Below are positions 101 to 20,505 of a DNA stretch of 21,208 nucleotides, one piece after another. Made by a program: the position numbers and the translations under genes. The stretch comes from a virus. The first letter of the stretch is position 1. Every line of letters begins with the position of its first letter. The stretch covers positions 1 to 21,208 of the IMG/VR virus record IMGVR_UViG_3300013123_000046; one strand, given 5' to 3'. Below the pieces are notes generated by a model, which was not told the origin of the DNA, did not search any database, and saw only the letters and a list, made by a program, of their open reading frames with translations.

Positions 101-837
101 ATAAAGTTGATAATTTTAGAACCAATACTTGTAATAATTGGGTATTCCATTGTAGGAGGGGTAAAATTACTTGTCCATCGTGCTATGCCTTTTGAGAAGC
201 GGAATTCGTCTATCCAACCGTTGAAATAAAATCCGTCATAATTTCCATATCTTCCTATTGTAAGTTTATCTTGTGCTTGATATGGTCCAGCAAAGGTTAA
301 ATCATTTGTGCTTATTGCTACTGTAGTTGTAAGAGTTTGAGAGACACCATCAATAAAAATATAGAAATTACTTCCATTTCTCACAAAGGCAAGATGATAC
401 CAGACACCAGTTGAGGGAGTCCACGAACAATAATATCTTCCCTTCTCTGTGTCATTAACAATACTATCAAAATGAAGTGTATTATCGGTATTCCAAAAAA
501 TACCAAAAAAATCTTTTTGATTACCAGAACCATCTGCGTTTTCAGCCGTTCTTCTTGCCCATTGAGATTGAGTTGATGCTATTGAATTAAAACGAATCCA
601 ATGGTCAACCGTAAAATCTCCTGCCGCAGGTTCATGGTCTGCCGTATCGGGAGTATCTATATAATCTCCCGTACCATCAAGCAATCCTGATGCAGTACCA
701 AACTTTTTTTGAGCTGTGTCAAGTTGGGCATTTCCACCAGCAGTCCATGTCTTACCACTTTCATCAGTAAAGGTAGTAGAAGCATCATCACCATTAAAAT
801 GAAGAAGGCTTTTTGTATAGGAATCATCTACTGCCAT
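97..837 (-). CDS. LamG/concanavalin-like jelly-roll virion protein (tail fibre or decoration)
   Basis: The protein has 246 residues. Most of it (about 10-220) has the pattern of a laminin-G-like (LamG_3) jelly roll: a start of the type LLHFNGDDAS, a central GDFTVDHWIRF strand, FYIFIDGVSQ, LTIGRYGN and the very typical closing stretch GWIDEFRFSKGIARW followed by FTPPT. In phages these domains sit on tail fibres, spikes or appendages and are thought to bind glycans at the cell surface. No signal peptide or membrane segment is seen. The ATG lies four bases after the stop of the upstream fibre-like gene, so the two are probably co-translated, and its stop overlaps the next start. The exact ligand is unknown. 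Confidence 0.8.
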   Translation of the reverse strand: MAVDDSYTKSLLHFNGDDASTTFTDESGKTWTAGGNAQLDTAQKKFGTASGLLDGTGDYIDTPDTADHEPAAGDFTVDHWIRFNSIASTQSQWARRTAENADGSGNQKDFFGIFWNTDNTLHFDSIVNDTEKGRYYCSWTPSTGVWYHLAFVRNGSNFYIFIDGVSQTLTTTVAISTNDLTFAGPYQAQDKLTIGRYGNYDGFYFNGWIDEFRFSKGIARWTSNFTPPTMEYPIITSIGSKIINFI

Positions 838-1866: not shown

Positions 1867-3831
1867 TTAGTTTCCAACACGCCAACTTGACGGTGGGTTG
1901 ACTTTGATTTGATTTCCTGAGAAAATCATTGACTGTAATGTATAATCTGCGTCTGTTGATTGAGTTGTTATACGAACCTGTACATCTTTAAGTTTTTTAT
2001 TTATTTTTATATATCTCGGATCAGCAGAGTCGGAAAAAAATGTCGGAACTCCAAGTGTATCTCCCATCTGAACCTCACCCATTACATCAAACCCCATTCC
2101 TGTCATTGAGTATTGAGGAGTAATGGTTGCTGAACCCAAAGATACAAACCCCGTTGACTTTCCCGAACCTAATACTTCAAAGTTAATCTCTCCTCTTGGA
2201 GAACCAAGTTTTATGAACACCTTTTTTAGTTTCAAAAAATCCTTCCAAAACTTGTTTAATGACCATCTTCCCGATGTATATGTTGTTGAAAAAGAAGCTC
2301 CTAAATCTCCCGCAATAGACGATGACATTTCAATCAGTTTTTCCCCTGATGTTGGGACATATAAAAAGTGTGTTGTTTTTGATGAGTCTGTATATTCAAG
2401 AAACTGTTTTGCACCTATTGACCAATCAACTACCCAACACATACGCTCAGTATCATAGTAGATTATTCTATTATTCGACGTACCCGTTGTCGGTACTGAA
2501 AAAAAGACCTTAGCATCATAAAAATATGCACAAACACTATCTATTGCAGATCCGACAAGCCCTCTTATATACGGTCTAATACGGGACGAAAGCTCGTTTG
2601 TACGCAAGATACCATAATAGTTTTTTTCTGGTCCAAGTGTGTACATACCACGTCTATTGAAAAACCATATATTGTTGTTATCTGATGTTACTGAAAGCTG
2701 TGAGTCAGTTCCGAATGATCCAACTACCTTTGTGGCATTTGGAATAGAAAATGAAGTATCCCCGACAGTTGCGGAAGTTATTGAGATCTGCCATACAGCA
2801 CCTTTCCCTTCAGGAGTTGAACAGAGTATGGTAGATCGGCCATCACCCTGTCCTGATTGATAATGAATAACAGCTTTAGGACGCTCACGACCTCCACGCT
2901 CTAAGGCAACCCATCCACCACCATAAAAGTCTGAAAACTTACCTATTGCTGTTCCTGTACCTGAAAAATACACAATATACGGATTACTCGGATCATTTGT
3001 CGCCCATATTCTGTTTCCCGATACAGTCATTGACTTAAACTTAGGAGCAGCAGTTGTATTTGATAAAGGAGGTTCAACATATACGTTAATCTCTTTTGTC
3101 CCGTCGTCCATATATTGATTAGCAGAGGAAGAGTCAAGCAATGCCTCATATCCTGTTGTTTCAGATATATATAATTGATATGCTGTTGCATCAGATACTG
3201 TATCCCAATTCCAAGTTATATACTCACTTGCCGCCCACTGATCACGGGGTTTGTTGATTGATACGGAAGCCTCTGTTGATCCGACAGTCTCTCCAATCTC
3301 ATTTACTGCAGTAACCTGTGCATACATAGTAAACGTCCCCGATGCTAACCCTGTCCGTGTACCGACTAATCCGGTTGGAGCTGAAAGGGAAGAATAGGTT
3401 GTAAGAACCGATCCATTATATCTGGCTAAGTTATCAGTTCCGTTTGCTATATATAAATATCCTGATATCTGCATAAAAAAACACTGAGTACCCGCTGTGA
3501 ACGTAGCACCTGTAACCTCCGTCCACGTCCCACCATTGGTTGAACTATATGCTTTTCCATTTGAAATAGCGATAAGCTCGGTAGTTCCGTCATTATTTAC
3601 ATACTCAGCAGCCCCATCAATCGTTGATGGGAGGGTTGATCCATAGTAGTCAGTTCCCCATCTCGGCTTCCACTTTCCATCATCAACCAACATAAGATTA
3701 GTCGCTTCTTTTGCCTCATTAAAGGCAAGTGAAGCCTCCTGAAGAAGCCGATTGACTCCGCCTCGATAGTCTTTTATCTCAAACTCCGTCTTGTTTTGAG
3801 AGGTAGTTCCCCCTCTAAAATCAAATTTCAT
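1867..3831 (-). CDS. Large beta-rich tail protein (tail hub / stabilisation-protein-like)
   Basis: The protein has 654 residues. The start opens with a conserved-looking segment around DYRGGVNRLLQEASL and NLMLVDDGKWKPRWGT, followed by repeated beta units rich in Ser, Thr, Gly and Tyr that could form a propeller-like fold. A fibronectin-III-like segment lies near residues 140-240 (start APTGL, later TAVNEIGET). Short-tailed phages carry a protein of this size and make-up just after the tail adaptor, such as the P22 gp10-like stabilisation or T7 gp12-like nozzle proteins, and position supports the same role here. Its ATG overlaps the adaptor stop (ATGA), with GGAG close upstream, so translation is probably coupled. 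The family assignment rests on context and composition and not on a diagnostic motif. Confidence 0.6.
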   Translation of the reverse strand: MKFDFRGGTTSQNKTEFEIKDYRGGVNRLLQEASLAFNEAKEATNLMLVDDGKWKPRWGTDYYGSTLPSTIDGAAEYVNNDGTTELIAISNGKAYSSTNGGTWTEVTGATFTAGTQCFFMQISGYLYIANGTDNLARYNGSVLTTYSSLSAPTGLVGTRTGLASGTFTMYAQVTAVNEIGETVGSTEASVSINKPRDQWAASEYITWNWDTVSDATAYQLYISETTGYEALLDSSSANQYMDDGTKEINVYVEPPLSNTTAAPKFKSMTVSGNRIWATNDPSNPYIVYFSGTGTAIGKFSDFYGGGWVALERGGRERPKAVIHYQSGQGDGRSTILCSTPEGKGAVWQISITSATVGDTSFSIPNATKVVGSFGTDSQLSVTSDNNNIWFFNRRGMYTLGPEKNYYGILRTNELSSRIRPYIRGLVGSAIDSVCAYFYDAKVFFSVPTTGTSNNRIIYYDTERMCWVVDWSIGAKQFLEYTDSSKTTHFLYVPTSGEKLIEMSSSIAGDLGASFSTTYTSGRWSLNKFWKDFLKLKKVFIKLGSPRGEINFEVLGSGKSTGFVSLGSATITPQYSMTGMGFDVMGEVQMGDTLGVPTFFSDSADPRYIKINKKLKDVQVRITTQSTDADYTLQSMIFSGNQIKVNPPSSWRVGN

Positions 3832-4496: not shown

Positions 4497-4600
4497 AGTT
4501 GTAAAAATAATTTTAGCCACAAAAAAAGGCCGAGACACCTAACGATTTTTCGTTAAGTAACTCGGCCTTACTGCTCACTTGTGCAGCACGGGCTATACCT
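4496..4600 (-). ncRNA. RNA cassette copy 1: structured leader ending in a terminator-like hairpin
   Basis: On the minus strand the element starts near GGTATAG, which overlaps the stop codon of the 1911-residue gene. It continues with CCCGTG, a small hairpin CTGC/GCAG, and then a long hairpin with outer stem GGCCGAG/CTCGGCC (4528-4534 with 4561-4567) and inner stem TAACGA/TCGTTA on an AAAA loop. Seven U residues (4521-4527) follow, then GTGGCTAAAA, and the adaptor ATG is 24 bases on. The hairpin plus U-tract looks like an intrinsic terminator, yet it stands in front of a structural gene. Layout and flanking boxes match the copies near 12025-12109 and 18511-18602. Confidence 0.7.
4521..4567 (-). 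terminator. Terminator-like hairpin before the adaptor gene
   Basis: A 7-bp GC-rich outer stem GGCCGAG/CTCGGCC encloses a second stem of 6-8 bp with an AAAA loop and is followed by seven U residues. It would stop transcription from upstream unless it is read through or antiterminated, because the tail genes follow without another clear promoter. Confidence 0.75.
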
Positions 4601-7600
4601 TAATCCTTATAATACTCTTTTGATTATCTTTTTTCAACACTATTTTAGGCATTTTGATTTTCTTTACTTTAGCAAGTTTGGGCGCTTTAATCTTGATAGT
4701 TTTAATTTTGGGAGCTTTCAAAAGTTTAACTGATACCTTTTTAACCGCCTTAGCTTTTGCACCTGAATACTTAGATGTCATACTTTTAAGTTTTGCAATA
4801 GCTTTTTCTGCTTCATCTGCTGTCATTTTACCTGCCTCATACAAATCAAGTATGTCATTGGCTTTACTCGTGATTTGACCTTTATACTTAGATACTAACT
4901 TTTTGTCAAGCTCGGTATTTCCTGTAAGTTGAGGAGCTTTGGGTTGAAAGTTAAGGTCTATTGTTTTTGTTTTACCATCACTGGTTGGAATTACAATAAA
5001 GTTTTTATAACTTCCAACACTATTATTGTTTTTTACCTGCTCTTTAACACTTTCAAGCTGTCTATCATCATGCCTTTTTTGCAATATGGTATTGTATTCT
5101 GATACTTTATCCTGTGCGTCTATTACCTTTTGTGTCTGTTTTTCTCCAAGAACATTCGTACCTTCCCTAAAGTATTTCTGTGCTTCTTGTACGGAGTTTG
5201 GACCAAAAAGTGTCGTTTTAATTCTATTCCCTGCATTTTGAGGAATAACAAAACGTATCCTTCCAGATGGAGAAGTAGTATATCCTTGATTATATGATGT
5301 AACACCTTCAACACTCTTTTTTACCTGTCCGCCACCAAAGGGAGGAAGTAAATAAGTAAGTGGTTTTGTAAACTCTTTTCCTAAGTTTGCCTCACCCCTG
5401 ATTAAAGCTGGAACATCAGGAATGGCAGCTCCAATCGGTATTCTTCCACCAGTAAATGTTGAACTGAATGGTAACTGATCTCCTATATTTTGTACAAGGT
5501 TTTGTGTAGCCCTACCTTTCTTCATATTAGGATTTATATAATCCTCATATGCTTGTTGTGCTACTCCTACCGGATCAAATGCAGGTCTTCTACTTGTAAT
5601 CTTCTCGTATATATTGTTAAATATGTAAGAATAAAGGAATAGTTGACCGATAGCCGATGCAGCACCTATCTTACTAAAGTTTCTTGGAATATCCTTTGCC
5701 ATGAATGATAACTGATTATTCACTTCAAGCTGAAACATAGTTAATGCCCGAAGTGTCTGTGAATTAAACATTGTAGGGGTTGATCCAAGAGAGCGATCTG
5801 CCATCATCCTTGCCGCCCAGTCATCTGCACGTTTCATGGCTTGTACTGGCGATAGTCCTTTTTTAATACCCTCATTAAACTTGCTTCTAACGATTGTTTG
5901 TGCAGTAAAATTATCAATAGCCTTAAACAACCACGATGCTTTATCTCCTGCCTTTTCCCATATATTCATTGATATTCTGTCAGATCCAATACGTCTTGTT
6001 AAAAAGTCGGATCTATCAATAAATCCATCATCTTTTAACATACCCGATATGGTTTGTGCCATTCCTTTTATAAATGATGGCTTGTCTGTTGTTGCAAGTG
6101 ATTGAGTAAATGGAATATAGTTTGTAAGGGCGGATGATACATTTGCAGCAACCATATTAGCACCAACCTTTCTTTGTAATCCTGTTGCAAATGCATATAT
6201 TTTTCTGCCAAAAAAGCCTTCTGCTGATCTATCAAGCATTGATTTCTTACCCGCAAGGTTATTTATATATTCTGTTAAATCTGCAACAAAGTTAGTAAGA
6301 TGTTGTGTCCCTGCAAACTTTGCACGTATTGATTTTTCAAGCAATCGTAAGTTTTGGATATTGTCTGTATGATATATCTGTTTTGAAGCACCTTCGATAT
6401 ATTTGTCTATTCCCTGAATAGCATCAAAGTCAGTCACATCTGTTTTTCTCTGTAGTGCATTAGCAAAGAAGTTTTTACCCGGTTTAAAGTCTGCGGTAAG
6501 TCCATTAACATCCGTTGGGAGTGCAGTATCACGTACTGGAATACCAACCTGTTCAAGCAGATTTGTTACTTCCTGAAAGTGAGTAAAGTAATCTTTTCTT
6601 TTTGGTATAGGATCATAACCATTTTGTTTTAATACTCGGTTTATATCATTTAAGTAAGTATCATACTTTCCTCTAATAACATTTATTGCCCTCTCAATTT
6701 GCTGTGTTTTTACCTCACCGACCTTAGCAACTACATCACTTCTGTTTATTTTGTTTTCTCCTAATCGCTGAAGTAATTTAGACTCAACGCTTCGTGCCTT
6801 TATTCCTAGTGAGCTTATTTCTCTTCTTTCCCTATTTAGCCATCTAATACGATCTGCCTCTGCTTTTTTAACAGGAGCTATAAATCGTTCTTTCATCTCT
6901 GGAGCATCTTTGCCCATTATGTCCTCGAAATTACGCTCTATTGTTTCTCTTGAGAGCAGTGGTCTTGCTTTATCCTTCCACAATTCGGCTCTATCCATTA
7001 TATCTTTATCTAAAGCTCTACCAGCCTTATCAATAACAATGTTTCCTTTTTTATTCGATACATATTTTCCTTGTAATCCTTTTTGTGTTTGTTGTTCAAT
7101 AATCTCACCAACACTTTTAATGCCTGATTTAACCTGTTGCTTTTCGTTTGATACAGTATCCTTAAAAACCATTCTTGACCATTCCTTAAAATCAGCTTCT
7201 GCTCTTTGTTGGGGTGATTGTATTTTTAGTTTTGGTTCAGCATTATAGACAATATCTCTCATTCCCTTTGCTTGTTTTTCAAGTTCTTTTGCTTGTTTCA
7301 GTTCAATGGGAAGCGGTATAGTAGCTTTTGACTTTGAAGGTAATGATAGCGCTATGTCTAATAATTCCACATCTGTCCTATTTATATTTCCCTCATAATC
7401 ATTTGTTATTTCACGCATCCTATTTAAAACTCTATCTACAAGTTTTGCGTTCTTAGTGTATAAGGTTTCAATGTCTCCTTCTTGTCCTGCTTTGCTGTTT
7501 ACCATTTTCCGTAAAGATGAAAGGTCTTGTAAGTCATTTTTACTTAATTGTTCTATTTGTGAAAGGATTGCATCATTTGCCATTTGATCTTCATATCTTA

Positions 7601-10328
7601 TTTGATATCCTACCCTTCTTAATTCCTCAGCCTTTTTAAGTAGTGTAGTTCTTGGTTTAACTTCTGGTATCCCCTCAGCCTTAGTTTTATTTACCGTATA
7701 CATTATTCTAGGTAGTTTCTTTTTTGCCTGTATTTGTTCAGGGGTAAGGTTTGGTTTTATTTTTAATACTCCCCCTGTGGATTGGGATTTATTCCATTTA
7801 TCTATGAGTTGGGATTTGGTGGTTGCTCCGCTTTTATATGCTTCCGTTACATCTAATAATTCTCCCTTGCTATTTCGTAAAAATACTCTTGTTTTATTTA
7901 GAGGCAAGTCGTTCATGTTGGATGTTATTTTAAATCCTCCAAATCCCACCCTCCCTTCACTTGCAACATTTTCTCTTGTTGTTCCAAAAACTACTTGTAA
8001 ATCTTTGCCTTTTGGCGGTTTAACGAAAACATCTCCCTTTGAGAAATTTCCCCGACCCCAGCCACTTTTAATATATCCACTTTTTAAAACTTCATCTGGC
8101 TTATTAGTAGCATGAAAATATGTATCGGGTAACTCCTCTGCACTCTTATACTTCCTTGCTTCTTGGATAAGGGGGTCTACTCCTTTAGTGGATTGTGCTT
8201 TATTCCATATATCGGTGAGTTGTTTTACTTGATTCTGTTCAGGGCTTCTAGGAAGATTTTTCCCGTAGATTTTTTGGAGTTCTTGATATTCTGGGACTTG
8301 TTCTGTTGAGATTTTACCTTCTGTGATTGCTTGATTTGTGATTTCATATAATTGTCTCCTAATCTCACCCTTATTATAACTTATATTATTAAGAAAATCA
8401 ATAGGAACGATCTTTGCTTGTCTTTTAGGTCCACTATTGTCAATTATGGTGATATTTATATCACTGCCAAACTTTTCATTTAATTTCTTAATTGTTTCTT
8501 TGCTTGAATTATGTAGTTGGATATGCACATCTAAGGGAACATGCCTTTCACCCCTTGCACTTCTTACCATTACTCCTTCTCCCCATGCTTTTAACGGATC
8601 TCGATAAACATAAACTATTGAAGGCTTATACCCTTTTTGTAACGCCTGATTTATTTTTTTTACTGCACTTTCATAATTTGATAAATTAGAATCATAAATT
8701 ATTGAGAAATCATTTATTTCTCCGTCTAATATTTCTTTAATTGCCGATGTTTTCCCTACTCCAGAACCACCCGCCGTAAATAGAATCTCATTATTACCAG
8801 TTCCTTTTCTTGTTTCTAGTAATTGAGTGTATACTTTTTTGGCAAGTTGAGAAGAAGGCTCATGAACCTCTTTTGCGTTTGTATAGTTGTATCCAATTGG
8901 TTTAAATAAATCCTTGGCCATATCAGGATTTACAACATTTCCATTACGCTTGATATACTCATTAACGAGATTCTCTTTATTAGCGTTATAATAATCAAGT
9001 GCTTTCGCTTCTATCCCTTTTCCCTCCTCCCCTTTTATCTTAATGGTGGGCTGTGCTTTATTCCATATATCAGTGAGTTGGGATTTGGTTTTGATTTGGA
9101 CTGGTTTTATTCCTCCAATATCAGTATTATTTCCTTTTAAGTGTAATTCGCCACGATAGATATCGTCAAATTTTACTTTTTTGGGGTCAACATTAAAAGC
9201 CAATACAACATCTTTATCTTTTCCAATACCGCCATATCCTTTTTTGTTGGTTGTGAAGTAAATATCTCCACCTTCCGTTTTTGAACCAAATATGCCAGAT
9301 TGCTTTATTTTTTCTGCACTTTCTTTTGTTGTGGAGTGATAAAGAGTTATTGTTCCGTCCGAATTTGTAGGCAAGTATTCGGCGGTATAGGGGTCTTGTA
9401 GTTTTAATCCGCTTTTATCTCTAACTTCTATTTTTTGTGTTCCGTGTGCCTTCACAAACTCCTCTAGATTGTTTTTACCTTCTTCTCTTGCGTTTTTTGT
9501 TGCAAGACCATAAGTAAACTCACCGAGTCCTGGACCTCTATCTGCCTGTTGCATTATTAGATCCAAAGCATTTTTAAGCTGTTTGTTGGTTAGATTTGAT
9601 GCTTCTTTTCCAAACACGGCTTCACCAAGTGATTGGATATATTCACCCAATTCCCCCAAATTCTTACGGTTAGCATTTGGATTATCTTCAACTATTTGTG
9701 CAAATTTACCGACAAGATTTCTCACTTCAGGACTAAAACCTTTTCTTACTGTTTCTATTTGTTCCTTTGTAAAACTGTTCCCCGAAGGTCGGCCTCCCAT
9801 TGTAATTCCTCCTACTAAATAATTCATTGAGGTTCTATATGCGTCTGCAAGTGCAGGATTTTTTTTATATATCGGTGTATTTTGGATGTATTTTTCTGTA
9901 TTTTGTTGATTTTGTTCATTCACGCCACCGATAAACTTCCAGTCTCTTGCAAAATTTATAGCTTTAGGAACCATTGACACTATTCCTTTTCCTGTATTTA
10001 AAGCAGAGTTAAAACCTGGAGAACCTGCTCCTAAAAATTGTCCTAATGTACGCATTGGATGTTGTTCATACTGATATGGTTGAGATGCAGGAGCCTGATT
10101 AAATCCTGTTACAAATTCTGAAACTGCGGTTTTAATTCCCTGTTTATTCTGCTGTATCTGTTGAGGAGTGGAATATTGTGGAGCAAAAGGAATATATGGT
10201 GATACTTTTTGATATGTGTTTGAATAGGACTGATATCCTTGTTTAACCGCATTACCGATATCACTCAAAAACTTAGGCTGTTGGCCACCGCCAAGCAACC
10301 TTTTAACTTTATCTAAAAGGTTGTCCAT
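4593..10328 (-). CDS. Giant polyvalent virion/ejection protein with ART-like, zeta-kinase-like and ART-like modules
   Basis: The protein has 1911 residues. Seen in order: a Gln-rich N-terminus; an ADP-ribosyltransferase-like module at about 320-395 (LYHSTT, then GGDIYFTT, then RGEL); a linker with SQLTDIWNKAQ; a P-loop kinase module at about 450-660 with Walker A GGSGVGKTS near 518-526, resembling zeta toxin/UDP-GlcNAc kinases; a second linker copy; a second ART-like module at about 736-835 (YFHATN, GDVFV); a third linker copy near 837; a long helical, Lys/Glu-rich section; a helical domain at about 1390-1580 like those common to large phage polyvalent proteins (starts GANMVAANVSSALTNY); and a very basic tail from about 1847. 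Proteins of this size placed between head and tail genes are often ejected with the genome, and toxin-like domains would then act in the host early. Activities are inferred and were not tested against structures. The stop is TAG. Confidence 0.75.
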   Translation of the reverse strand: MDNLLDKVKRLLGGGQQPKFLSDIGNAVKQGYQSYSNTYQKVSPYIPFAPQYSTPQQIQQNKQGIKTAVSEFVTGFNQAPASQPYQYEQHPMRTLGQFLGAGSPGFNSALNTGKGIVSMVPKAINFARDWKFIGGVNEQNQQNTEKYIQNTPIYKKNPALADAYRTSMNYLVGGITMGGRPSGNSFTKEQIETVRKGFSPEVRNLVGKFAQIVEDNPNANRKNLGELGEYIQSLGEAVFGKEASNLTNKQLKNALDLIMQQADRGPGLGEFTYGLATKNAREEGKNNLEEFVKAHGTQKIEVRDKSGLKLQDPYTAEYLPTNSDGTITLYHSTTKESAEKIKQSGIFGSKTEGGDIYFTTNKKGYGGIGKDKDVVLAFNVDPKKVKFDDIYRGELHLKGNNTDIGGIKPVQIKTKSQLTDIWNKAQPTIKIKGEEGKGIEAKALDYYNANKENLVNEYIKRNGNVVNPDMAKDLFKPIGYNYTNAKEVHEPSSQLAKKVYTQLLETRKGTGNNEILFTAGGSGVGKTSAIKEILDGEINDFSIIYDSNLSNYESAVKKINQALQKGYKPSIVYVYRDPLKAWGEGVMVRSARGERHVPLDVHIQLHNSSKETIKKLNEKFGSDINITIIDNSGPKRQAKIVPIDFLNNISYNKGEIRRQLYEITNQAITEGKISTEQVPEYQELQKIYGKNLPRSPEQNQVKQLTDIWNKAQSTKGVDPLIQEARKYKSAEELPDTYFHATNKPDEVLKSGYIKSGWGRGNFSKGDVFVKPPKGKDLQVVFGTTRENVASEGRVGFGGFKITSNMNDLPLNKTRVFLRNSKGELLDVTEAYKSGATTKSQLIDKWNKSQSTGGVLKIKPNLTPEQIQAKKKLPRIMYTVNKTKAEGIPEVKPRTTLLKKAEELRRVGYQIRYEDQMANDAILSQIEQLSKNDLQDLSSLRKMVNSKAGQEGDIETLYTKNAKLVDRVLNRMREITNDYEGNINRTDVELLDIALSLPSKSKATIPLPIELKQAKELEKQAKGMRDIVYNAEPKLKIQSPQQRAEADFKEWSRMVFKDTVSNEKQQVKSGIKSVGEIIEQQTQKGLQGKYVSNKKGNIVIDKAGRALDKDIMDRAELWKDKARPLLSRETIERNFEDIMGKDAPEMKERFIAPVKKAEADRIRWLNRERREISSLGIKARSVESKLLQRLGENKINRSDVVAKVGEVKTQQIERAINVIRGKYDTYLNDINRVLKQNGYDPIPKRKDYFTHFQEVTNLLEQVGIPVRDTALPTDVNGLTADFKPGKNFFANALQRKTDVTDFDAIQGIDKYIEGASKQIYHTDNIQNLRLLEKSIRAKFAGTQHLTNFVADLTEYINNLAGKKSMLDRSAEGFFGRKIYAFATGLQRKVGANMVAANVSSALTNYIPFTQSLATTDKPSFIKGMAQTISGMLKDDGFIDRSDFLTRRIGSDRISMNIWEKAGDKASWLFKAIDNFTAQTIVRSKFNEGIKKGLSPVQAMKRADDWAARMMADRSLGSTPTMFNSQTLRALTMFQLEVNNQLSFMAKDIPRNFSKIGAASAIGQLFLYSYIFNNIYEKITSRRPAFDPVGVAQQAYEDYINPNMKKGRATQNLVQNIGDQLPFSSTFTGGRIPIGAAIPDVPALIRGEANLGKEFTKPLTYLLPPFGGGQVKKSVEGVTSYNQGYTTSPSGRIRFVIPQNAGNRIKTTLFGPNSVQEAQKYFREGTNVLGEKQTQKVIDAQDKVSEYNTILQKRHDDRQLESVKEQVKNNNSVGSYKNFIVIPTSDGKTKTIDLNFQPKAPQLTGNTELDKKLVSKYKGQITSKANDILDLYEAGKMTADEAEKAIAKLKSMTSKYSGAKAKAVKKVSVKLLKAPKIKTIKIKAPKLAKVKKIKMPKIVLKKDNQKSIIRIKV
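4609..4637 (-). promoter_or_regulatory. Sigma70-like promoter for RNA cassette copy 1
   Basis: A TTGAAA at 4632-4637 and a TATTAT at 4609-4614 are 17 bp apart, within the 3' end of the 1911-residue gene. The predicted start lies near GGTA at 4599, the same relative place as in the other two cassettes. The region is AT-rich, which raises the chance of a false match. The repeated arrangement at three sites is the main support. Confidence 0.5.
7775..7820 (-). repeat. Linker repeat copy 3 (KSQLIDKWNKSQST)
   Basis: This is the third copy of a roughly 35-45 bp repeat inside the 1911-residue gene. It encodes a segment ending in WNKSQST and shares both DNA and protein with the copies at 8188-8231 and 9052-9090. 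It closes the second ART-like module. Confidence 0.75.
8188..8231 (-). repeat. Linker repeat copy 2 (QLTDIWNKAQST)
   Basis: This second copy sits between the zeta-kinase-like module and the second ART-like module. Its DNA shares tttattccatatatc with copy 1 and the gtggatt stretch with copy 3, so nucleotide identity and not only protein similarity is retained. Confidence 0.8.
9052..9090 (-). repeat. Linker repeat copy 1 (KSQLTDIWNKAQ)
   Basis: This first copy lies between the first ART-like module and the zeta-kinase-like module. It carries the same WNKAQ core as the other two copies. Confidence 0.8.
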
Positions 10329-10338
10329 AAGTGGTTAT

Positions 10339-11616
10339 TTAACCTATATAATTTGATAATTGAGATAGATACTTAGGTTTTTGTTCTTCTTTAGTTGTTC
10401 CGTAACCTATTCCTGGATAAAATGGCGCACTCATGTTTCCTTGAGCGTCAAATGTCGGTATTCCATTTATCTGTCTAGGAGTTACATTTGCTGCTGTATA
10501 GTTTGATACCTCAGCTAGGTTACTTCTTAATGTTTGAATATCTTTTGCATTGTTCATAGCCCATTGTTCAAGCATTGACCGTCTATTTGATACCTCAGCT
10601 TTAGCCTGCATAAGAGCCTGTGTTGCCTGTTGTAATAACTGCGTTGATAGATTGGCTAAAGATTGCCCTTTTTGTAGCTGTCCCTGTGCCTTAGCCTGTC
10701 TTATTGCGTTTTGCTGTTCTCCAAGCCATTGAGTTATACCAAGAACAGCATTATCATAGTTTGTTTTAAGTTTACCCATTTCTTGTGTAACTACATTGTT
10801 TAGCTTTGATACTCTATCTTGTATATCATTTTCTATTGATCTTGTTTGCTCAAGTACTCCTGCACGCTGTTTACTTCCCATTTTGGTTAAAGCATAAGAG
10901 TACATATTGGCAGCACTTGAGTCTCCAGCGCCTCGTGTACCAAGTGTTACCTGACCTGTACGCATAAGATTGCCTATATTTTCGGCAATATCACGCAGTC
11001 CCTTAACCTGTTGTTCGGTATTCTTTCGACTTTGGGTATTAAGATCGCCCAGTGAGGATTGTTTTTGTAATCCTATGTCTGATACTCCTTGATTGTATGA
11101 ATTGGTAGTAATTCCTTTTTGAGCTTCAGCTTGTCCGGGTAATTCTCCCATCATATTGTCTAGTTCTCTAAAGTAGTTATCATATCCTGAGTTGATTTCA
11201 TTACGGGCTTGAGCTGAATAGTCTACTCCACCTCCACCGCTACCGACTGGGTTGCCCCATTGGTCTAATTCTCCATCTTTAATTGCATCTGCAAGTTTTT
11301 TACCATTTATATATGTGGTATATGGGTTTGGGGGTTGGCCTCCATTATTTGAGCTTGTATTTGGGCTTGTATTTGGTGAGCCCCATGATCCTCCACCACC
11401 GCCACCAGACGAAGGGCTTGTTGATGTAGGATTTTGTGATGTTCCACTTGAAAACCCACTTGAAAAACCAGAAGAAGATAATCCCTTATCATAATTAACC
11501 TGTGGATTATATAATGGTAAACCACCAACTGATTGACCGGGAGAAAATACTTTCTCCGACAAACCATAATCTGGTATATTAACTCCAAAGATGTTCCATT
11601 GACCTTTACTTGCCAT
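10339..11616 (-). CDS. Ser/Gly-rich coiled-coil virion (probable ejection) protein
   Basis: The protein has 425 residues. Residues 40-110 are low-complexity Ser, Gly, Pro and Asn, including a run of six Gly, and probably disordered. Residues 130-375 are strongly helical and Gln/Ala/Lys-rich, with long heptad-like stretches around QLQKGQSLANLSTQLLQQ and MQAKAEVSNRRSMLEQW. The C-terminus is short and Pro/Tyr-rich. This make-up, with its place directly before the giant protein (10 bases between genes), fits an internal virion or pilot protein that helps DNA leave the capsid. The ATG at 11616 has no Shine-Dalgarno sequence nearby. The nearest AAGGAGG is 31 bases upstream, behind a long structured leader. 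No family was recognised. Confidence 0.55.
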   Translation of the reverse strand: MASKGQWNIFGVNIPDYGLSEKVFSPGQSVGGLPLYNPQVNYDKGLSSSGFSSGFSSGTSQNPTSTSPSSGGGGGGSWGSPNTSPNTSSNNGGQPPNPYTTYINGKKLADAIKDGELDQWGNPVGSGGGGVDYSAQARNEINSGYDNYFRELDNMMGELPGQAEAQKGITTNSYNQGVSDIGLQKQSSLGDLNTQSRKNTEQQVKGLRDIAENIGNLMRTGQVTLGTRGAGDSSAANMYSYALTKMGSKQRAGVLEQTRSIENDIQDRVSKLNNVVTQEMGKLKTNYDNAVLGITQWLGEQQNAIRQAKAQGQLQKGQSLANLSTQLLQQATQALMQAKAEVSNRRSMLEQWAMNNAKDIQTLRSNLAEVSNYTAANVTPRQINGIPTFDAQGNMSAPFYPGIGYGTTKEEQKPKYLSQLSNYIG

Positions 11617-12024
11617 ATTATTGAAATAAAACTAATAAAAAGAGCTACCTCCTTATAAGCCCTCCGGGCTATGGGGGTGAATATACTACCTACCCTCCCT
11701 CTACTTCAATCTATTCTCCGCATTCATGTCTTGCCCTCCCTCCTGAAGTTGTTCCCTATCAGGTAGGTGGAGTTCGTCATGCGTTTGAATGAGTTGTCGT
11801 TTTGGGGCTCTTGTGGAAATTCCTTTTAGTTGGCGAACCTCTTGCGAGGAAAGATTGAGACGAGCACTCTGCCTCCCGACTTATTAAGCTCACGCTTCTT
11901 AGTCAGTAGCTGAAGGTATAAGGGTAGGGTAGCGGCCGCTACTTTAATATCTTCACCACCGAGAGTTAAGGAAAATAACCCTCAGCTACCGAACAAGAAA
12001 CCTGTTAAAGAGCTTTTAACCTAC
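11617..12024 (-). ncRNA. About 400 nt non-coding, strongly structured leader or RNA
   Basis: This is the only long gap between genes. In the minus-strand RNA several helices are visible. GTAGCTGA/TCAGCTAC (11982-11989 with 11906-11913) encloses a perfect 14-bp palindrome at 11929-11942. Two small hairpins have GNRA loops: AAGC-GTGA-GCTT (11886-11897) and CCTC-GCAA-GAGG (11838-11849). Further stems are CCTGA/TCAGG (11742-11763), ACCTACC/GGTAGGT (11762-11768 with 11688-11694, sharing bases 11762-11763 with the previous stem, so the two are partly exclusive) and AGCCC-GGA-GGGCT (11658-11670). It lies between RNA cassette copy 3 and the 425-residue gene. It could be a separate RNA, a regulatory leader, or remains of a gene (see the ORF at 11701-11880). 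I recognise no known RNA class. Confidence 0.5.
11701..11880 (-). other. 59-codon open frame without a normal start codon (possible broken small gene)
   Basis: Within the structured gap one minus frame is open from just after a TAA to a TAG at 11701-11703. Its translation is protein-like and polar, for example LNLSSQEVRQLKG and later QTHDELHLPDREQ. It has no ATG, GTG or TTG near its beginning. A GTG in a neighbouring frame at about 11893 would join it through a +1 shift. The only good initiation signal is internal: an ATG at 11727 preceded by AGGAGGGAGG, giving just MNAENRLK and a stop. It may be a frameshifted gene, a leader peptide, or chance within an RNA. Confidence 0.25.
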
Positions 12025-12076
12025 AAAAAATCCGCCTCTTGTTACTTCTGTTATTCACAAAAATAACTAAAGGCGG
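12025..12076 (-). terminator. Terminator-like hairpin after the glycosyltransferase gene
   Basis: The stem CCGCCT/AGGCGG with an internal GTTATT/AATAAC hairpin is followed by six U residues. It could end the head-gene transcript as well as the short RNA started by the promoter at 12113-12140. Confidence 0.65.
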
Positions 12077-12109
12077 TTTACTACCACGTATCTTGTAGCA
12101 AGACCTACC
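12025..12109 (-). ncRNA. RNA cassette copy 3: structured RNA starting at a near-consensus promoter
   Basis: On the minus strand the RNA would begin at about 12109 with GGTAGG. It then has GTCTTG, a small hairpin CTAC/GTAG (12095-12098 with 12081-12084) that could instead form TCTTG/CAAGA, and a longer hairpin with outer stem CCGCCT/AGGCGG (12032-12037 with 12071-12076) around an inner GTTATT/AATAAC. Six U residues (12025-12030) follow, then GTAGGTTAAAA. Its form matches copies 1 and 2, while its stem bases differ. Unlike those, it is followed by the 400-nt structured region and not directly by a gene. Confidence 0.7.
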
Positions 12110-12112
12110 CCC

Positions 12113-12140
12113 ATTATACTATGTAAAACTATGTTGTCAA
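12113..12140 (-). promoter_or_regulatory. Consensus sigma70 promoter
   Basis: A perfect TTGACA (12135-12140) and a perfect TATAAT (12113-12118) are separated by 16 bp, directly after the glycosyltransferase stop. The start would fall in the G-run leading into GGTAGG, the first bases of RNA cassette copy 3. This is the best promoter in the window. Confidence 0.85.
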
Positions 12141-12153
12141 GAGGAAAAAATGT

Positions 12154-13248
12154 CTAATCTTTCATATTTTTAACTATGTTTTCAAACAATTCTTTATATT
12201 TTATCCAATTTTTAGAGATATTTCGTTTATTTTTGACATAGTTATAGTTATTTTCTCCTATTTTCTTACGTTTTTGCTCATTTTCTACTAAATCTTTAAG
12301 ATTTTTATACCATTCTTCTTCATTTTGAGCAAAAATAATGTCAGAATTGCGTTCTCTTCTATATGGATAGACATTTGAGGTAATTGTTGGTAGTTTTGCA
12401 GCAGAATACTCAAGAAACTTTAAAGATGACTTAGATTTTGAGAAATTAGACGTATGAAGGGGAGCAACCGCTATATCAGCCATTGATATTTCCTTCTTCC
12501 AGAGCTTAATATACTCCATAAAGTCAGAGTGTCCTGGAATATATCTATATCTTTCTCCATAATTGGCAAATATATTCGTCATCATACCAATAGCCCAGAA
12601 GTGTACGTTTTTATACTCATTCAGTATTCTGTGCATGGCTTTTACAAACGGGGGGAAGTTGATATCGAGAAAATGGGTATGTGAACCTGAATAGACTATT
12701 ACAATCTTGTCATCTTCTACGTGAGGATCAGGATTATATAAATCAAGATCAATACTATTTCCTATCGAGTGAGTCATCGAACCAATACGTTTTGTGTAGT
12801 GTACTATCCTGTCTAAAAGAAAAGGTTGTGTGCAGATCAAGTGGGGAACGTCTTTAAGTATCGCCTCAACCCTGTCATGGTCTTTAGTTCCGGGATGAAG
12901 CCGCTCATACACAGGATTACTTTCGTCAATCTCCCATATATTATCATCCAAATCAAGTACAAGATTGCAATTATTTCGCATTCCGTGTACCCGTATGCTT
13001 ATATATGCCGCCTCCTTTGCTATATTATATCCTGAAAAGATAATATCAAACTTATTAGTTATATCCTTCCAGTTCTTGTCCCCATTTATAAAGGGATCAC
13101 GTCTTATCTCGATATTCCAGTCTGTATTCTTTTTTAAGTATAAAAGCGGCTGTACAACTCGAAAGTAATCAACGGCCGATGTCCTTTCGTGAAGCTGTCC
13201 TTTATCATCCCGATAATTATAGTTAAGCTCAAATCCGACTACATTCAT
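12154..13248 (-). CDS. GT-B glycosyltransferase (family 4/1-like)
   Basis: The protein has 364 residues from ATG 13248, which has GGGGAG 10 bases upstream. A TTG six codons earlier is a poorer start. The N-terminal half is Rossmann-like and includes LVLDLDDNIWE near residue 97. The C-terminal half has IVYSGSHTHFLD near 185 and ADIAVAPL followed by KSSLKFLEYSAAKLP near 280, the usual nucleotide-sugar-binding pattern of GT4-type enzymes. The last 60 residues are Lys/Asn-rich helix. It would transfer a sugar from an activated donor; donor and acceptor are unknown. Its place inside the virion gene block suggests it acts on a capsid or tail protein, or on the host surface. It may be a cargo gene gained by transfer, as it is flanked by a 96-bp gap upstream and a fresh promoter downstream. 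Confidence 0.8.
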   Translation of the reverse strand: MNVVGFELNYNYRDDKGQLHERTSAVDYFRVVQPLLYLKKNTDWNIEIRRDPFINGDKNWKDITNKFDIIFSGYNIAKEAAYISIRVHGMRNNCNLVLDLDDNIWEIDESNPVYERLHPGTKDHDRVEAILKDVPHLICTQPFLLDRIVHYTKRIGSMTHSIGNSIDLDLYNPDPHVEDDKIVIVYSGSHTHFLDINFPPFVKAMHRILNEYKNVHFWAIGMMTNIFANYGERYRYIPGHSDFMEYIKLWKKEISMADIAVAPLHTSNFSKSKSSLKFLEYSAAKLPTITSNVYPYRRERNSDIIFAQNEEEWYKNLKDLVENEQKRKKIGENNYNYVKNKRNISKNWIKYKELFENIVKNMKD

Positions 13249-13344
13249 AATGGCTGATCTCCCCAACTTCCTTTATAACGGTCTATATACTCATTTCTCC
13301 ATCAACCACCACAAACCTATCTTCATTTAATTTAATTATTATAA

Positions 13345-14360: not shown

Positions 14361-15269
14361 TTAAGCAGTTGCACCAAACTTAGCAACGTAAAACCAAGCT
14401 GACACAAGCCCTTTCACTACATACGAACCCGCCCATGAGGCAAGGCTAAATCTACCGGTAGCGTTTCCACTATCGATTTGAGTGTGAGGGACTATGTATA
14501 ACTTTGGAGGATCACCGTCTAAGTTGTATGAACCAACCGCATCAGCACCGTGTGCATATGTGTGATATACAGTTACAGTAGAAGATGTGGTTTTTGCATT
14601 TGCTGAAAGCAGGAATCTGAATCCATACAATTCACCCATCTCTCCTCTGTAAAGGTCTTTTACATCAGAGTAGGTTTTTGCATTGATCCAAGTTGAATCT
14701 GCAACCAGGTCAGCTTTCACATAAGGGGTTACTTTCCAAACGAACATTCCATCTGCATATTTACGTGTATAGGCCGCTTCCATTGTTCGTGCCATTTTGC
14801 GGATATTTGCCGCACTTATGACATCTGAAGCTGCAAGATCTGATACTGCACCTTTTGCATTTGCTAAATATGCTGTTCCATTGTCAAGTTCGTTTCTAAC
14901 TAGAGTATCCATCGTTTCTCTCATATTCTGTCCTACGACTGCAATCTTTTCCTTGTTGTTCACATCAACTGATGTGAGGGAAAGGAATCGACTGATTTTG
15001 ACTTTAGTTCCATACTCTGAAAGAGTTGCTGATACCGTTGCAGAAGTAAGAGATACTTCTGAAGGATCTTCACTTTCGGTCAAAGGTGTCGTTGCGACGG
15101 CTAAGGGAGAATAGCGATTGAATACGATTGTTTTACCCTCATTTTGAGATCGGGATTGTTTTTGCAAACCCTCCTCATAGACCTGTTCAAATTCGTTTCT
15201 TTTCAGAAACACTTTTGAATACAGAGTCATCATCTCATTTGAGAGCGTTGTGGTCGTTTCGGCTGCCAT
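14361..15269 (-). CDS. Major capsid protein, N4-gp56 family (HK97 fold)
   Basis: The protein has 302 residues. It matches the N4-gp56-type capsid pattern: an N-terminal helix (LSNEMMTLYSKVFLKRNEFEQ), an extended arm with IVFNRYSPLA and a TPLTE segment, then SRFLSLTSVD, a helical segment with ETMDTLVRNELDNG, TPYVKADLVADSTWI at about 179-193, and LYRGEMGELYGFRF at about 203-216. The last part is VVKGLVSAWFYVAKFGA. It forms the icosahedral shell. The scaffold gene lies directly upstream, as usual. The ATG follows an A-rich leader (AAGTTAAAAAAA) with no strong Shine-Dalgarno. Length is typical for the family. No protease gene is visible nearby, so the N-terminus may not be cleaved. Confidence 0.85.
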   Translation of the reverse strand: MAAETTTTLSNEMMTLYSKVFLKRNEFEQVYEEGLQKQSRSQNEGKTIVFNRYSPLAVATTPLTESEDPSEVSLTSATVSATLSEYGTKVKISRFLSLTSVDVNNKEKIAVVGQNMRETMDTLVRNELDNGTAYLANAKGAVSDLAASDVISAANIRKMARTMEAAYTRKYADGMFVWKVTPYVKADLVADSTWINAKTYSDVKDLYRGEMGELYGFRFLLSANAKTTSSTVTVYHTYAHGADAVGSYNLDGDPPKLYIVPHTQIDSGNATGRFSLASWAGSYVVKGLVSAWFYVAKFGATA

Positions 15270-16379: not shown

Positions 16380-16713
16380 GTATAGCTTCCTCGACTGATT
16401 CGTAAGAATCTTCAACTTTGTTAATAATACTGTCAAGTAAGCCCTTTCCTAGTACTAACACTACTGCCCGTTTACCTATTTCATCCTCACCCATACCCGT
16501 TTCAACCGCCCCCCTCATTTGTTCATCAAGTCCCGTTTTTAATTCTTCAATATGTTTCTTTAGTGCATTCCATCCGTTTGTATCCCGAAGATCGTGAATA
16601 AACTTCTCATCCTCATCAACTCCCGCTTTTTTTGCCTTCTCAGCGTCAGGACGTACATATAAAGAACGGATGTTATCGTAAAATGTTGGTTTAATAGCCG
16701 ACGGCTTGCTCAT
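16363..16713 (-). CDS. Small helical protein following the portal gene
   Basis: The protein has 116 residues, charged and mostly helical, with FYDNIRSLYVRPDAEKAKKAG near the start, WNALKKHIEELKTGLDEQM in the middle, and a hydrophobic helix VVLVLGKGLLDSIINKVED near the end. Its ATG overlaps the portal stop (ATGA), so translation is coupled, and its end overlaps the CxxC protein gene. No family was recognised. Coupling to the portal suggests a role in head assembly. Confidence 0.6.
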   Translation of the reverse strand: MSKPSAIKPTFYDNIRSLYVRPDAEKAKKAGVDEDEKFIHDLRDTNGWNALKKHIEELKTGLDEQMRGAVETGMGEDEIGKRAVVLVLGKGLLDSIINKVEDSYESVEEAIHGESK

Positions 16714-18506
16714 TTGGTCCTTGTTGAACTGGGTTGAACTGGTAATCCCTGTTGTGGTTGTGGTGGAATTTCCCCCATATCAGATGACATTTGCCGTACT
16801 GCCTGCAAGAACTGATTTTGATGATCCTGAAGTATTGCATCATCCTCTTGCGCTCCGGGAGAAGTAGTGTCTTGTGTTATCATAATTTTATCCCAATCGC
16901 TTATTCCCATCTTTGACACAAGACGGGTAAGAAGCTCGGTAAACCTAAACTGTGTACCCTCTTGCTGTTGCATGATTTGTAAAAGTTGCGGATACTTCAT
17001 TAAAAGCTCCAATAACATAAGAAGGTTTTGTTGTTGTTTCGACTCATCAAGCTGGTAAGAAGAACCCGACACAATTTCATAATCATAAAGTACTGATCCT
17101 GTTTTCTTTCTGTCAATCTTCAATACTCCCTTTTTCTCATCCCATTGATCTGCAAGTTCGGGATATTGGTTTATAAGTTTTGTTATTTCCTCATTAAACA
17201 TGCGCACTGCAACCTTACCCTGCTGACGGTTGCTCATAAGATTAACCATCTTTTTGAATATATCTGTTACTGCGAGTTCAATATAGAACCTGTCCCATGC
17301 ATCCCTTGCATTTTCCCTTGCGTTTTGTTGCCTTAATGCCTCAGGAGTTTTACCAAAGGTGGTATCCACATTACTTGAAACGGTTGTATCGGTTGTACCG
17401 AAATGATTAAGTAGTGATGCGTTTGCAAGGTTATACACTGCCTGTAGTGTCTGTATTCCTTGTGGAGAAAGATTTATTGCTCTTGCTGCCTGATCGACGT
17501 TTCCCCGTGCTAACCAGTTTGCTCCAGCAACTCGTTTAATCGAAGATTTGACGATAATATCTTTATTGAATACAACAGGAGGAAAGATTGACATCTTTGC
17601 ACTATCTAACCCCAAGTTCCAAGAGGAATTGATTACATACTGCATAGATTTACCCCGCTCTGCATCTCCCATTCCCATAAAGTCATCGTCTCTTGGAATA
17701 GCATATTTACACCCAATCGGGAACTCCCCATCTTTGTTTGGATTTTTTCTGTCCCTTATAAACTGAAACTCGGCAGAAGGTACTGCATCAACCCATCTAT
17801 CCCGCTCATACATGGATATAACCTCATAGGGACCAACACCCTTCTCTCCTTCTTTGTCCGGGTATTCGTTCTGTTCCCGTTTTGTTTTCTCGGTGTCATT
17901 TGTTTTATCTGAAGATTTATCTTTTAGTTTTTTTATTACAGCATCTATGTTTTCAAACCCGTCTTTTTTCTTTAATCCTTCAAACCATGACATCGGTCTG
18001 AAAGTTCTAACGATAATATAATCCGAGTCCTCAAGTGATAATGGCCCAACCTGCGGAAAGATATTCCATATATTAAGAAGGTACATATCAGGACCTACAT
18101 ATCCGTTTCGTTTTACGTCCCAGTCAACCATATAGAATGAAGTTCCATATATTTTAGAAAGTCTGTGAAGAAGTCTCAGCTTTACTAAAAAAGGAAACTG
18201 AGCATTAGCATTTGGAACGATATATTTATCAAGCATTAAATTCATAAGCTTTGCAGTTACCTCATCATTTCGTGATATTGCCTTTACTTTACCTGTTGGA
18301 ACCTGTGCCATTACCCTTGCTTCTGATTCAAGAATATAAGTAGAGATCTTATGATCAAACACCCTTGATTTTGTTGTGTTTGATAACCTATCTTCTAAAT
18401 TACCATCAAATAAATCCTCAACTTCCTCCCATAACGCTCTTTTTGTGGATAAATAGGTATCGGCTGCGTCATACCGAGTTTGTATTAGGTCTTGTAGTTT
18501 TGACAT
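16710..18506 (-). CDS. Portal protein
   Basis: The protein has 598 residues from MSKLQDLIQTRY at 18506. The frame is open to 18569, but those 21 codons would cross the terminator-like hairpin and U-tract of RNA cassette copy 2. Portal features: a helical N-terminus (YDAADTYLSTKRALWEEVEDL), a beta-rich stretch with YGTSFYMVDWD and MYLLNIWNIFPQVGPL, a wing-like region with a Lys/Glu-rich loop at about 190-220, a long helical stem with SSWNLGLDSAKMSIFPPVV and TPEALRQQNARENARDAWDRF, and a Gln/Pro-rich C-terminus of the barrel or tail type. Twelve copies usually form the DNA channel at one capsid vertex. It follows terminase, as expected. There is no strong ribosome binding site. Confidence 0.85.
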   Translation of the reverse strand: MSKLQDLIQTRYDAADTYLSTKRALWEEVEDLFDGNLEDRLSNTTKSRVFDHKISTYILESEARVMAQVPTGKVKAISRNDEVTAKLMNLMLDKYIVPNANAQFPFLVKLRLLHRLSKIYGTSFYMVDWDVKRNGYVGPDMYLLNIWNIFPQVGPLSLEDSDYIIVRTFRPMSWFEGLKKKDGFENIDAVIKKLKDKSSDKTNDTEKTKREQNEYPDKEGEKGVGPYEVISMYERDRWVDAVPSAEFQFIRDRKNPNKDGEFPIGCKYAIPRDDDFMGMGDAERGKSMQYVINSSWNLGLDSAKMSIFPPVVFNKDIIVKSSIKRVAGANWLARGNVDQAARAINLSPQGIQTLQAVYNLANASLLNHFGTTDTTVSSNVDTTFGKTPEALRQQNARENARDAWDRFYIELAVTDIFKKMVNLMSNRQQGKVAVRMFNEEITKLINQYPELADQWDEKKGVLKIDRKKTGSVLYDYEIVSGSSYQLDESKQQQNLLMLLELLMKYPQLLQIMQQQEGTQFRFTELLTRLVSKMGISDWDKIMITQDTTSPGAQEDDAILQDHQNQFLQAVRQMSSDMGEIPPQPQQGLPVQPSSTRTK

Positions 18507-18510
18507 ATAT

Positions 18511-18602
18511 ATTTTAGGCCATAAAAAAAGCCGGAGCCAATCACTAATATATGATTGATTCCGGCTCAAGTACTTATTCTGTACTCACGGCCTCAAACTA
18601 CC
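18511..18602 (-). ncRNA. RNA cassette copy 2: structured leader before the portal gene
   Basis: The minus RNA would start at GGTAG (about 18602). It continues with GGCCGTG, a small hairpin AGTAC/GTACT (18581-18585 with 18569-18573) with loop AGAATAA, then a long hairpin with outer stem GCCGGA/TCCGGC (18530-18535 with 18560-18565) and inner stem CAATCA/TGATTG. Seven U residues (18523-18529) and ATGGCCTAAAAT follow. The portal ATG is 16 bases beyond the U-tract. It shares form and end-boxes with copies 1 and 3 while its stem bases differ. Confidence 0.7.
18523..18565 (-). terminator. Terminator-like hairpin before the portal gene
   Basis: The stem GCCGGA/TCCGGC plus CAATCA/TGATTG is followed by seven U residues and lies only 16 bases before the portal start. 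It would separate terminase from head gene expression unless read through. Confidence 0.75.
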
Positions 18603-19065: not shown

Positions 19066-19228
19066 TCCTGCGGTACTCCACATATTCTCGCATGACATAA
19101 TCTATAATTTGTCCCTTTTGAACTCTAATCTCAAAATGATATAAACCGTTTACAACTATATCAATACCCCGATCTATATCAATATGTGCCTCAATATTTG
19201 ATTCTTTAATTTTGTCTTGAAAAGTCAT
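19016..19228 (-). CDS. Small hypothetical protein, first of a trio
   Basis: The protein has 70 residues. Its ATG overlaps the large terminase stop (ATGA), so it is coupled to terminase translation. Residues 20-52 contain VVNGLYHFEIRVQKGQIIDY, a strand-turn-strand pattern like the next two genes, ending in a basic, Ser/Gly-rich tail that lies within the overlap with the next gene. No family was recognised with confidence. Confidence 0.5.
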   Translation of the reverse strand: MTFQDKIKESNIEAHIDIDRGIDIVVNGLYHFEIRVQKGQIIDYVMREYVEYRRNDKTKGALSRHSGKRG

Positions 19229-20505
19229 AAATATAAACCCGTTTTTTTATCAAATAAATCGTTCTCTGGAAAGTCATCATCCTCATCTGTCGGTCTTAAA
19301 CTCTCCATTCCATATCTTACTGCATCAACACAGTGATCCCAGCCCTCCTCTGGTTCATTAAGAGGATTACCTGTTTCTTTATCAATTTTCCATGCGTAAT
19401 TATCATATTCTTTTAATAAATGAATACTCCTTCTTGTTACGCTTATCTTTTGATCCTTAACATACTGTATCCCCTGATTAACACTTCCCGAACCTTTGTT
19501 TGATGCAACTATATTAACGCCATATAGTTTTATCTCGTCAATACTTTTCGGCTCTGCTGAATCGGCTATTACTATTGTCTGCGGTTGTTTTTGATTAAGA
19601 ATTGTATCGGCAATTAGTTTATTACTCATTCCCCGTTGATACATCTCCTCATCAAGAATATACCCTCCGTTATAGTAATATATTGCTATAAGCGTTGTAG
19701 GATCGTTTGTATAGCCAAAATCAAGCCCTCTTCTTTCAAGTCGTGCTTCGTGTGGGACAGAGTCAATAACTTGCCAATTATTAAATATCTTACCCTGTAC
19801 AATTTCAGCAACTAAACCACACACAACATTCCAATAGTGAGATGGTTTTGTAATACGGTATTCTTCATACTTTATTACACTTTGCGGAGCTATATTTACA
19901 ATGTTATCTTTATAATTTGTGTTTATAAGAGTAGTATCGGCAATTCCATCTTTTAACTGAAAGTTATAGTATCCTTTTTCTTCGCTATCTGTTAGTTTCA
20001 TCCATCTCTGTATAATCCAATGTGTTTTTGCCGGGGGATTAAGAAGAAAAATAATCTTTATATCACCTTTTATAGTACGAAGTGAGTCATCAAGTTGCAT
20101 AAAGTCCTCTTCTGGTATTTCATCAGCCTCTTCAATAATAACGTAGTTATATGACGCTAATGATTTTAGCTTTGCTTTCTGATCTCCTGACGACTTTCTA
20201 AACCCAACTGCGTTGATACTATTTGCTTTGTACTCAATCTTCATTAAGGTATCATTTATTTGTAATTGGGTTTCAACCTCATTCTCTTCTGCACGATCAA
20301 TAATCTCTCTATATATTGAATTACGGATATCTCCCAAAATATATCGCATTATGGCACATCTGAAGTAATCATCAGCCATGAGTTTTGCTAGGGCGAGTTG
20401 TGAGGCAACTGTTGACCTCCCTCCGCCTCTCCCACCCATAAGAATAAAGTATCTTGACTTATCAATAAATAAGGGTTTATATACCTCATTTACTTTCTGT
20501 TTCAT
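19225..20505 (-). CDS. terL: Terminase large subunit (ATPase and nuclease)
   Basis: The protein has 426 residues and is the motor that packages DNA through the portal and cuts the concatemer. The ATPase half has a Walker A at residues 24-32, GGRGGGRST, with Arg where Lys is usual, a Walker B with VIIEEADEIPEED near 122-134, and a coupling segment IIFLLNPPAKTHW. The nuclease half has LDFGYTNDP near 262, IVIADSAEPKS near 310 and WDHCVDAVRYG near 388, giving three Asp residues of the RNase H-like metal site. This is the Terminase_3-type arrangement and full length. The start overlaps the small terminase gene by 20 bases. No Shine-Dalgarno is visible, so coupling to the upstream gene is likely. 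Confidence 0.92.
   Translation of the reverse strand: MKQKVNEVYKPLFIDKSRYFILMGGRGGGRSTVASQLALAKLMADDYFRCAIMRYILGDIRNSIYREIIDRAEENEVETQLQINDTLMKIEYKANSINAVGFRKSSGDQKAKLKSLASYNYVIIEEADEIPEEDFMQLDDSLRTIKGDIKIIFLLNPPAKTHWIIQRWMKLTDSEEKGYYNFQLKDGIADTTLINTNYKDNIVNIAPQSVIKYEEYRITKPSHYWNVVCGLVAEIVQGKIFNNWQVIDSVPHEARLERRGLDFGYTNDPTTLIAIYYYNGGYILDEEMYQRGMSNKLIADTILNQKQPQTIVIADSAEPKSIDEIKLYGVNIVASNKGSGSVNQGIQYVKDQKISVTRRSIHLLKEYDNYAWKIDKETGNPLNEPEEGWDHCVDAVRYGMESLRPTDEDDDFPENDLFDKKTGLYL

Follow-up and report, generated by a model that had tools for sequence, protein, structure and literature searches.

The intergenic interval and its setting

The window analysed here is the IMG/VR virus record IMGVR_UViG_3300013123_000046, a stretch of 21,208 nt to which all coordinates refer unless a related locus (L number) is named. 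Every gene with a family match is carried by its minus strand (Table 1), among them a gene for a lectin-like protein; lectins of the Concanavalin A-like superfamily are reported from Patescibacteriota phages in PMC12911398. Family searches with the 425-aa protein returned no match, and the term "ejection protein" is only the label given to it in the original prediction. In several relatives no ribosome-binding site is close to the start of this gene, which follows a leader rich in A and T that resembles TTATTAGTTTA..AATATG.

Table 1. Features of the window and, where named, their counterparts in relatives
Feature	Position	Strand	Remarks
Lectin-like protein	97-837	-	family match; Concanavalin A-like lectin domain
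1911-aa protein	4593-10328	-	family match; zeta-toxin-like kinase stretch at residues 541-633
425-aa gene	10339-11616	-	directly after the RNA interval
A/T-rich leader before 425-aa gene	11614-11660	-	L061 2870-2909; L013 3750-3791; L010 9530-9562
Conserved core with purine-rich tail	11694-11814	-	homologues L061 2534-2656, L028 20024-20148
Core outer helix	11796-11787/11716-11707	-	two single-base bulges
Core second helix	11783-11779/11723-11719	-	after 3/2 internal loop
Core terminal hairpin	11763-11742	-	12-nt loop
GNRA hairpin CCUC-GCAA-GAGG	11838-11849	-	counterparts in L061 and L028
Conserved strand GGGAGGCAGAGUGCUCGUC with CCUC-GCAA-GAGG	11838-11877	-	L061 CCUAC-GAAA-GUAGG; L028 CUA-GUAA-UAG
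GNRA hairpin AAGC-GUGA-GCUU	11886-11897	-	L028: AAGUAA-GAGA-UUACUU in same place; not found in L061
5' domain	11894-12002	-	~23-bp stem, two inner hairpins, the second with self-complementary GGCC loop
14-bp palindrome GTAGCGGCCGCTAC	11929-11942		second inner hairpin of 5' domain
boxA-like 20-mer TAAAAGCTCTTTAACAGGTT	11999-12018	-	just past the terminator
Short leader: hairpin CUAC..GUAG, then strong intrinsic terminator	12025-12112	-	stem from 12076, T-run to 12025; local z about -4.4
Sigma-70-type promoter TTGACA-16-TATAAT	12113-12140	-	12/12 consensus match; upstream of short leader; same arrangement in relatives
Glycosyltransferase	12154-13266	-	family match; neighbour of RNA interval
Major head protein	14361-15269	-	family match
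Head-tail adaptor-like protein	16710-18569	-	family match
Terminase large subunit	19225-20505	-	family match
CAP-domain-like proteins in the slot of relatives	L010 9051-9521; L087 3503-3949; L028 3712-4197; L057 2997-3602	reverse

The 408 nt at 11617-12024 are intergenic, since the 425-aa gene on the minus strand starts at 11616 and the T-run of the terminator ends at 12025; the longest ATG/GTG/TTG open reading frame inside them encodes 38 aa, and the interval contains no plausible gene. Its GC content of 0.449 (window as a whole: 0.379) exceeds that of 98.6% of 408-nt windows (1.4% are equally GC-rich). The minus strand carries two GNRA hairpins with stems of at least 4 bp, a number equalled in 31 of 1000 dinucleotide shuffles, and the window contains no perfect 14-bp palindrome other than GTAGCGGCCGCTAC, against an average of 0.03 in shuffles of the 408 nt. 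The minimum-energy fold of the interval contains at least six helices, and four of the proposed helices are supported by relatives. These observations bear out the original prediction, which had described a non-coding gap of 408 bases between a terminator and a gene, apparently richer in GC than its neighbours and with at least six helices, two of them closed by GNRA tetraloops and one enclosing the palindrome.

The proposed comparison of folding with shuffled controls gave a divided result. Over its entire length the interval is only weakly special in fold energy (z -1.8 on the minus strand, with 6/100 shuffles equally good, and z -0.7 on the plus strand, with 23/100), and the signal is local: on the minus strand, 12002-11894 reaches z -4.5 (1/1000 shuffles) and the conserved rod 11798-11707 reaches z -3.3 (1/300 shuffles). 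The evidence points to an RNA encoded on the minus strand, the original prediction having named no strand.

The interval is preceded by a compact unit of promoter, short leader and terminator. When five such leaders were folded, the window included, each formed a hairpin ahead of a strong terminator. Of 45 slots, 21 contain a promoter (at least 9/12 consensus positions) with a terminator behind it, compared with 12 of 600 random windows. These 45 are the 50 slot rows described below minus L055 (contig of L009), L080 (coordinates and score of L077), L050 (cut by the contig end), L024 and L025, and 21/45 is a little low because the last two represent contigs of L011 and L010, in which the unit is visible by eye. 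The order of promoter, terminator and gene suggests attenuation, Q-like antitermination or a small RNA. The strong promoter often overlaps the glycosyltransferase stop codon, with the hairpin and terminator then preceding the next gene.

The 20-mer TAAAAGCTCTTTAACAGGTT, which we take to be a boxA-like site, has an exact copy in the same place at L010 9009-9028 and a copy with 3 mismatches in an intergenic gap at L013 14156-14175. An exact 17-mer of it has 5 matches in viral contigs, 2 within this phage group and 3 elsewhere, and a 14-mer, considered as a possible host signal, has 0 in 72 genomes.

Homologous copies and the conserved fold

Relatives were found by profile searches with two proteins, the 425-aa protein and one of 654 aa (1867-3831), the latter being the best-conserved structural protein. 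A search with the slot of the window against all loci identified a copy of the RNA in the same slot at L061 2473-2666, with 75% identity over ~200 nt (blastn E 3e-27, nhmmer E 4.5e-17); the 654-aa proteins of these two genomes share 45% residue identity. A further copy, L028 20005-20145, was found with a sequence profile of the window and L061 alone (E 2.3e-4), at a stage when structure had not yet entered the search, and is located in a 332-nt gap in a different part of the genome from the slot of the window and L061. In all three genomes the RNA is intergenic and on the sense strand.

Conserved among the window, L061 and L028 are three helices, one GNRA hairpin and a terminal loop of 12 nt. 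Each of the three sequences folded singly yields the same rod, and 92% of cells are paired in the three-copy alignment, a value lowered because the alignment misplaces the terminal hairpin of the window. The helices vary in sequence: the outer helix starts with CAA/UUG in the window and L061 and AGA/UCU in L028, the second helix alternates between CGCAU/AUGCG and CGGU/ACCG among the three copies, and the terminal loops UAGGGAACAACU, UAAGUAGAAACC and UAAGUAACAACC are carried by stems of differing sequence. Both sides have changed in 8 of 22 pairs across the three copies, which 1 of 500 shuffles reaches and slid controls (0 to 2) do not. Pairing is therefore kept through double changes in the homologues, the covariation by which the original prediction was to be checked, and the covariation from three secure sequences is good, although not overwhelming; taken alone, the core z-scores are modest (L061 -1.7, L028 -1.2).

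Outside the core, a GNRA hairpin stands before it in all three copies (4, 5 and 3 bp in the window, L061 and L028, respectively) and a second one in the window and L028. The 5' domain has no sequence conservation; it is of like topology in L056, one long hairpin in L028 and absent in L061. L056 itself gives no significant profile match, but the same slot there holds a stem of comparable topology, with a GGCC loop, and also a similar tail rich in purines. We consider it a probable fourth copy, graded no higher because model R1 missed it in the wide search and gave 9.6 bits (E 0.023) on 701 nt with filters off. The MAFFT alignment of the window and L056 puts the stem in the wrong place. In a scan of 1.27 Mb for the GGCC loop, the window and L056 ranked first of 238 candidates, with a motif picked after both had been seen.

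Protein coding and known RNA families were also considered. On the RNA strand, no reading frame is open in all three homologues, and most alignment gaps have lengths not divisible by three; the protein-like frame that would have spoken against the original prediction thus does not survive in the homologues. Coding on the opposite strand was rejected as well: the window and L061 have the start MRLNELS in common, and the window stops after 16 residues. Rfam 15, which includes GOLLD, ROOL, OLE, pRNA, introns, ribozymes and riboswitches, gave 0 gathering-score matches on the window, the outcome named as support in the original prediction, and low-threshold scans (E up to 10) of the window, L061, L028 and L056 gave scores far below gathering. 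A transposon guide RNA of the IscB/TnpB kind was discarded, as the neighbour at 12154-13266 is a glycosyltransferase and not a nuclease, and a HEARO-like Rfam match is absent.

Distribution of the RNA and the probable host

Homologues of the 425-aa protein are encoded by 51 of the 70 loci scanned (weakest L083, E 9e-5), and the 50 rows upstream of them, without L083, with the window included and with L009 and L055 representing one contig, form our slot set. The gaps range from 10 to 1428 nt, a few rows being measured from a small ORF instead of the glycosyltransferase. A reverse ORF of at least 80 aa occupies 9/50 rows, and CAP-family matches at E up to 0.01 were obtained with four of the seven reverse slot proteins tested, two of them exceeding the gathering score. 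Given the varying gaps, reverse ORFs and CAP proteins, it is evident that this is an accessory slot. Three of the four copies of the RNA, L056 counted, reside in it after the promoter-leader-terminator unit, which many relatives keep, most of them without the RNA.

Across 85 sources (1.32 Mb, some contigs included twice), model R1 matched only the window, L061 and L028, from which it was itself built; the next best match has E 3.6. On 50 whole records it returned L061, L028 and one match at E 0.33, and on overlapping sets of 379, 72, 373 and 380 bacterial genomes, searched with stricter filters and without a positive control, it returned none. Scanning both strands for a fuzzy version of the motif added no convincing member. 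With so few matches, the RNA is apparently rare and patchy.

Other routes to relatives were less productive. Among those found through the terminase (L002-L005), L004 alone reaches far enough past the terminase and has another gene set there; the major capsid protein scan gave 0 relatives and the portal scan 1, and DNA similarity to named phages gave chance matches or none. Metagenome bins contain two of the relatives, and one bin carries the label Parcubacteria; genomes grouped with both bins are ~1 Mb. On the strength of this label and these genome sizes the host is likely, by inference, a member of the Patescibacteria, bearing in mind that bins can hold foreign contigs. Literature searches that combined Patescibacteria with phage and with structured or noncoding RNA turned up no such RNA in phages of these probable hosts.

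Possible roles of the RNA

The conserved pairing, the compensatory changes, the lack of a surviving frame and the lack of an Rfam match agree with the original view of the interval as another structured phage RNA. On balance, we favor an undescribed family of phage structured RNA, ~190 to 320 nt in length and encoded on the minus strand, which would act as an autonomous RNA; a gene-independent role in cis fits nearly as well. To our knowledge, few phage structured RNAs have compensatory changes and no Rfam entry. Presumably, read-through of the leader terminator places the RNA on the transcript of the tail operon, where it would fold independently and act autonomously, not as a switch for the following gene. 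The GNRA hairpins probably dock inside the fold, and the GGCC loop of the window and L056 could pair two RNA copies. The RNA is directly testable with model R1 and the three sequences.

As described in PMC12286853, GOLLD and ROOL are likewise phage-encoded structured RNAs of unknown function, and GOLLD combines a variable 5' part with a conserved 3' part, as does the RNA described here. In contrast to both, the present RNA is much smaller and has neither an Rfam match nor an adjoining tRNA. The same paper (PMC12286853) describes a palindromic GGCC kissing loop in OLE RNA, which resembles the self-complementary GGCC loop of the window and L056; however, the RNA is not OLE by Rfam, and L061 and L028 are missing this loop. 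It is quite doubtful, if conceivable, that copies self-assemble through the GGCC loop and GNRA docking and so form, inside an ultra-small host of the Patescibacteria, a particle made of RNA only, a smaller and independent counterpart of GOLLD/ROOL.

The main rival to an autonomous RNA, although rather unlikely in our view, is processive antitermination in cis, in the manner of HK022 put or EAR: the nascent RNA, perhaps together with the boxA-like site, would bind RNA polymerase and carry it through the long tail operon. The RNA is on the sense strand at the start of a long operon, behind a promoter and terminator, and the boxA-like 20-mer adjoins it; the promoter-leader-terminator unit before the slot itself points at attenuation or antitermination of the tail genes in this phage group, for which metagenomes are the only source here. 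Antitermination RNAs are also independent of the gene behind them, and EAR and boxA, like the RNA here, are found on the sense strand near the operon start. However, the nearest terminator is upstream of the RNA and not downstream, and the boxA-like site is missing beside the RNAs of L061 and L028 and present in L010 without the RNA. The HK022 put RNA, likewise a phage RNA on the sense strand near the operon start, is described in PMC9378689 as ~70 nt with two stem-loops. Compared with put, EAR and boxA, the present RNA has a larger core and another fold and lies behind a terminator.

A ribozyme or a mobile RNA or DNA element, such as a non-autonomous insertion, in the accessory slot is improbable. 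Patchy presence, two locations, GNRA hairpins and an RNA better conserved than the proteins would all suit such an element, but a ribozyme or intron match in Rfam is absent, the window shows no adjoining transposase or reverse transcriptase, and the RNA is intergenic in 3/3 genomes.

The original prediction had also offered a long 5' leader for the ejection proteins, and this part was not supported. Such a leader would regulate the 425-aa gene at the level of translation or transcription. In the window the RNA is directly upstream of that gene and an AAGGAGG lies near the end of the interval; however, this motif sits ~31 nt before the ATG, too distant for a normal ribosome site, and the RNA has a second location in L028. 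A gene-specific leader or riboswitch requires a common downstream gene family, whereas the sense-strand RNA is followed by three different genes in 3/3 genomes (the 425-aa structural gene in the window, and in L061 and L028 small 50-aa ORFs that differ in sequence from each other), and the RNA is missing from most relatives in which the downstream gene is that of the window. A leader is therefore unlikely, and we regard it as slightly less credible than a mobile element. Least probable is a relic or DNA-level element (an origin, or a recombination or binding site at the palindrome) with incidental folding, which would suit the palindrome and the GC peak, but the palindrome is missing from the L061 and L028 copies and the compensatory changes are at the RNA level.
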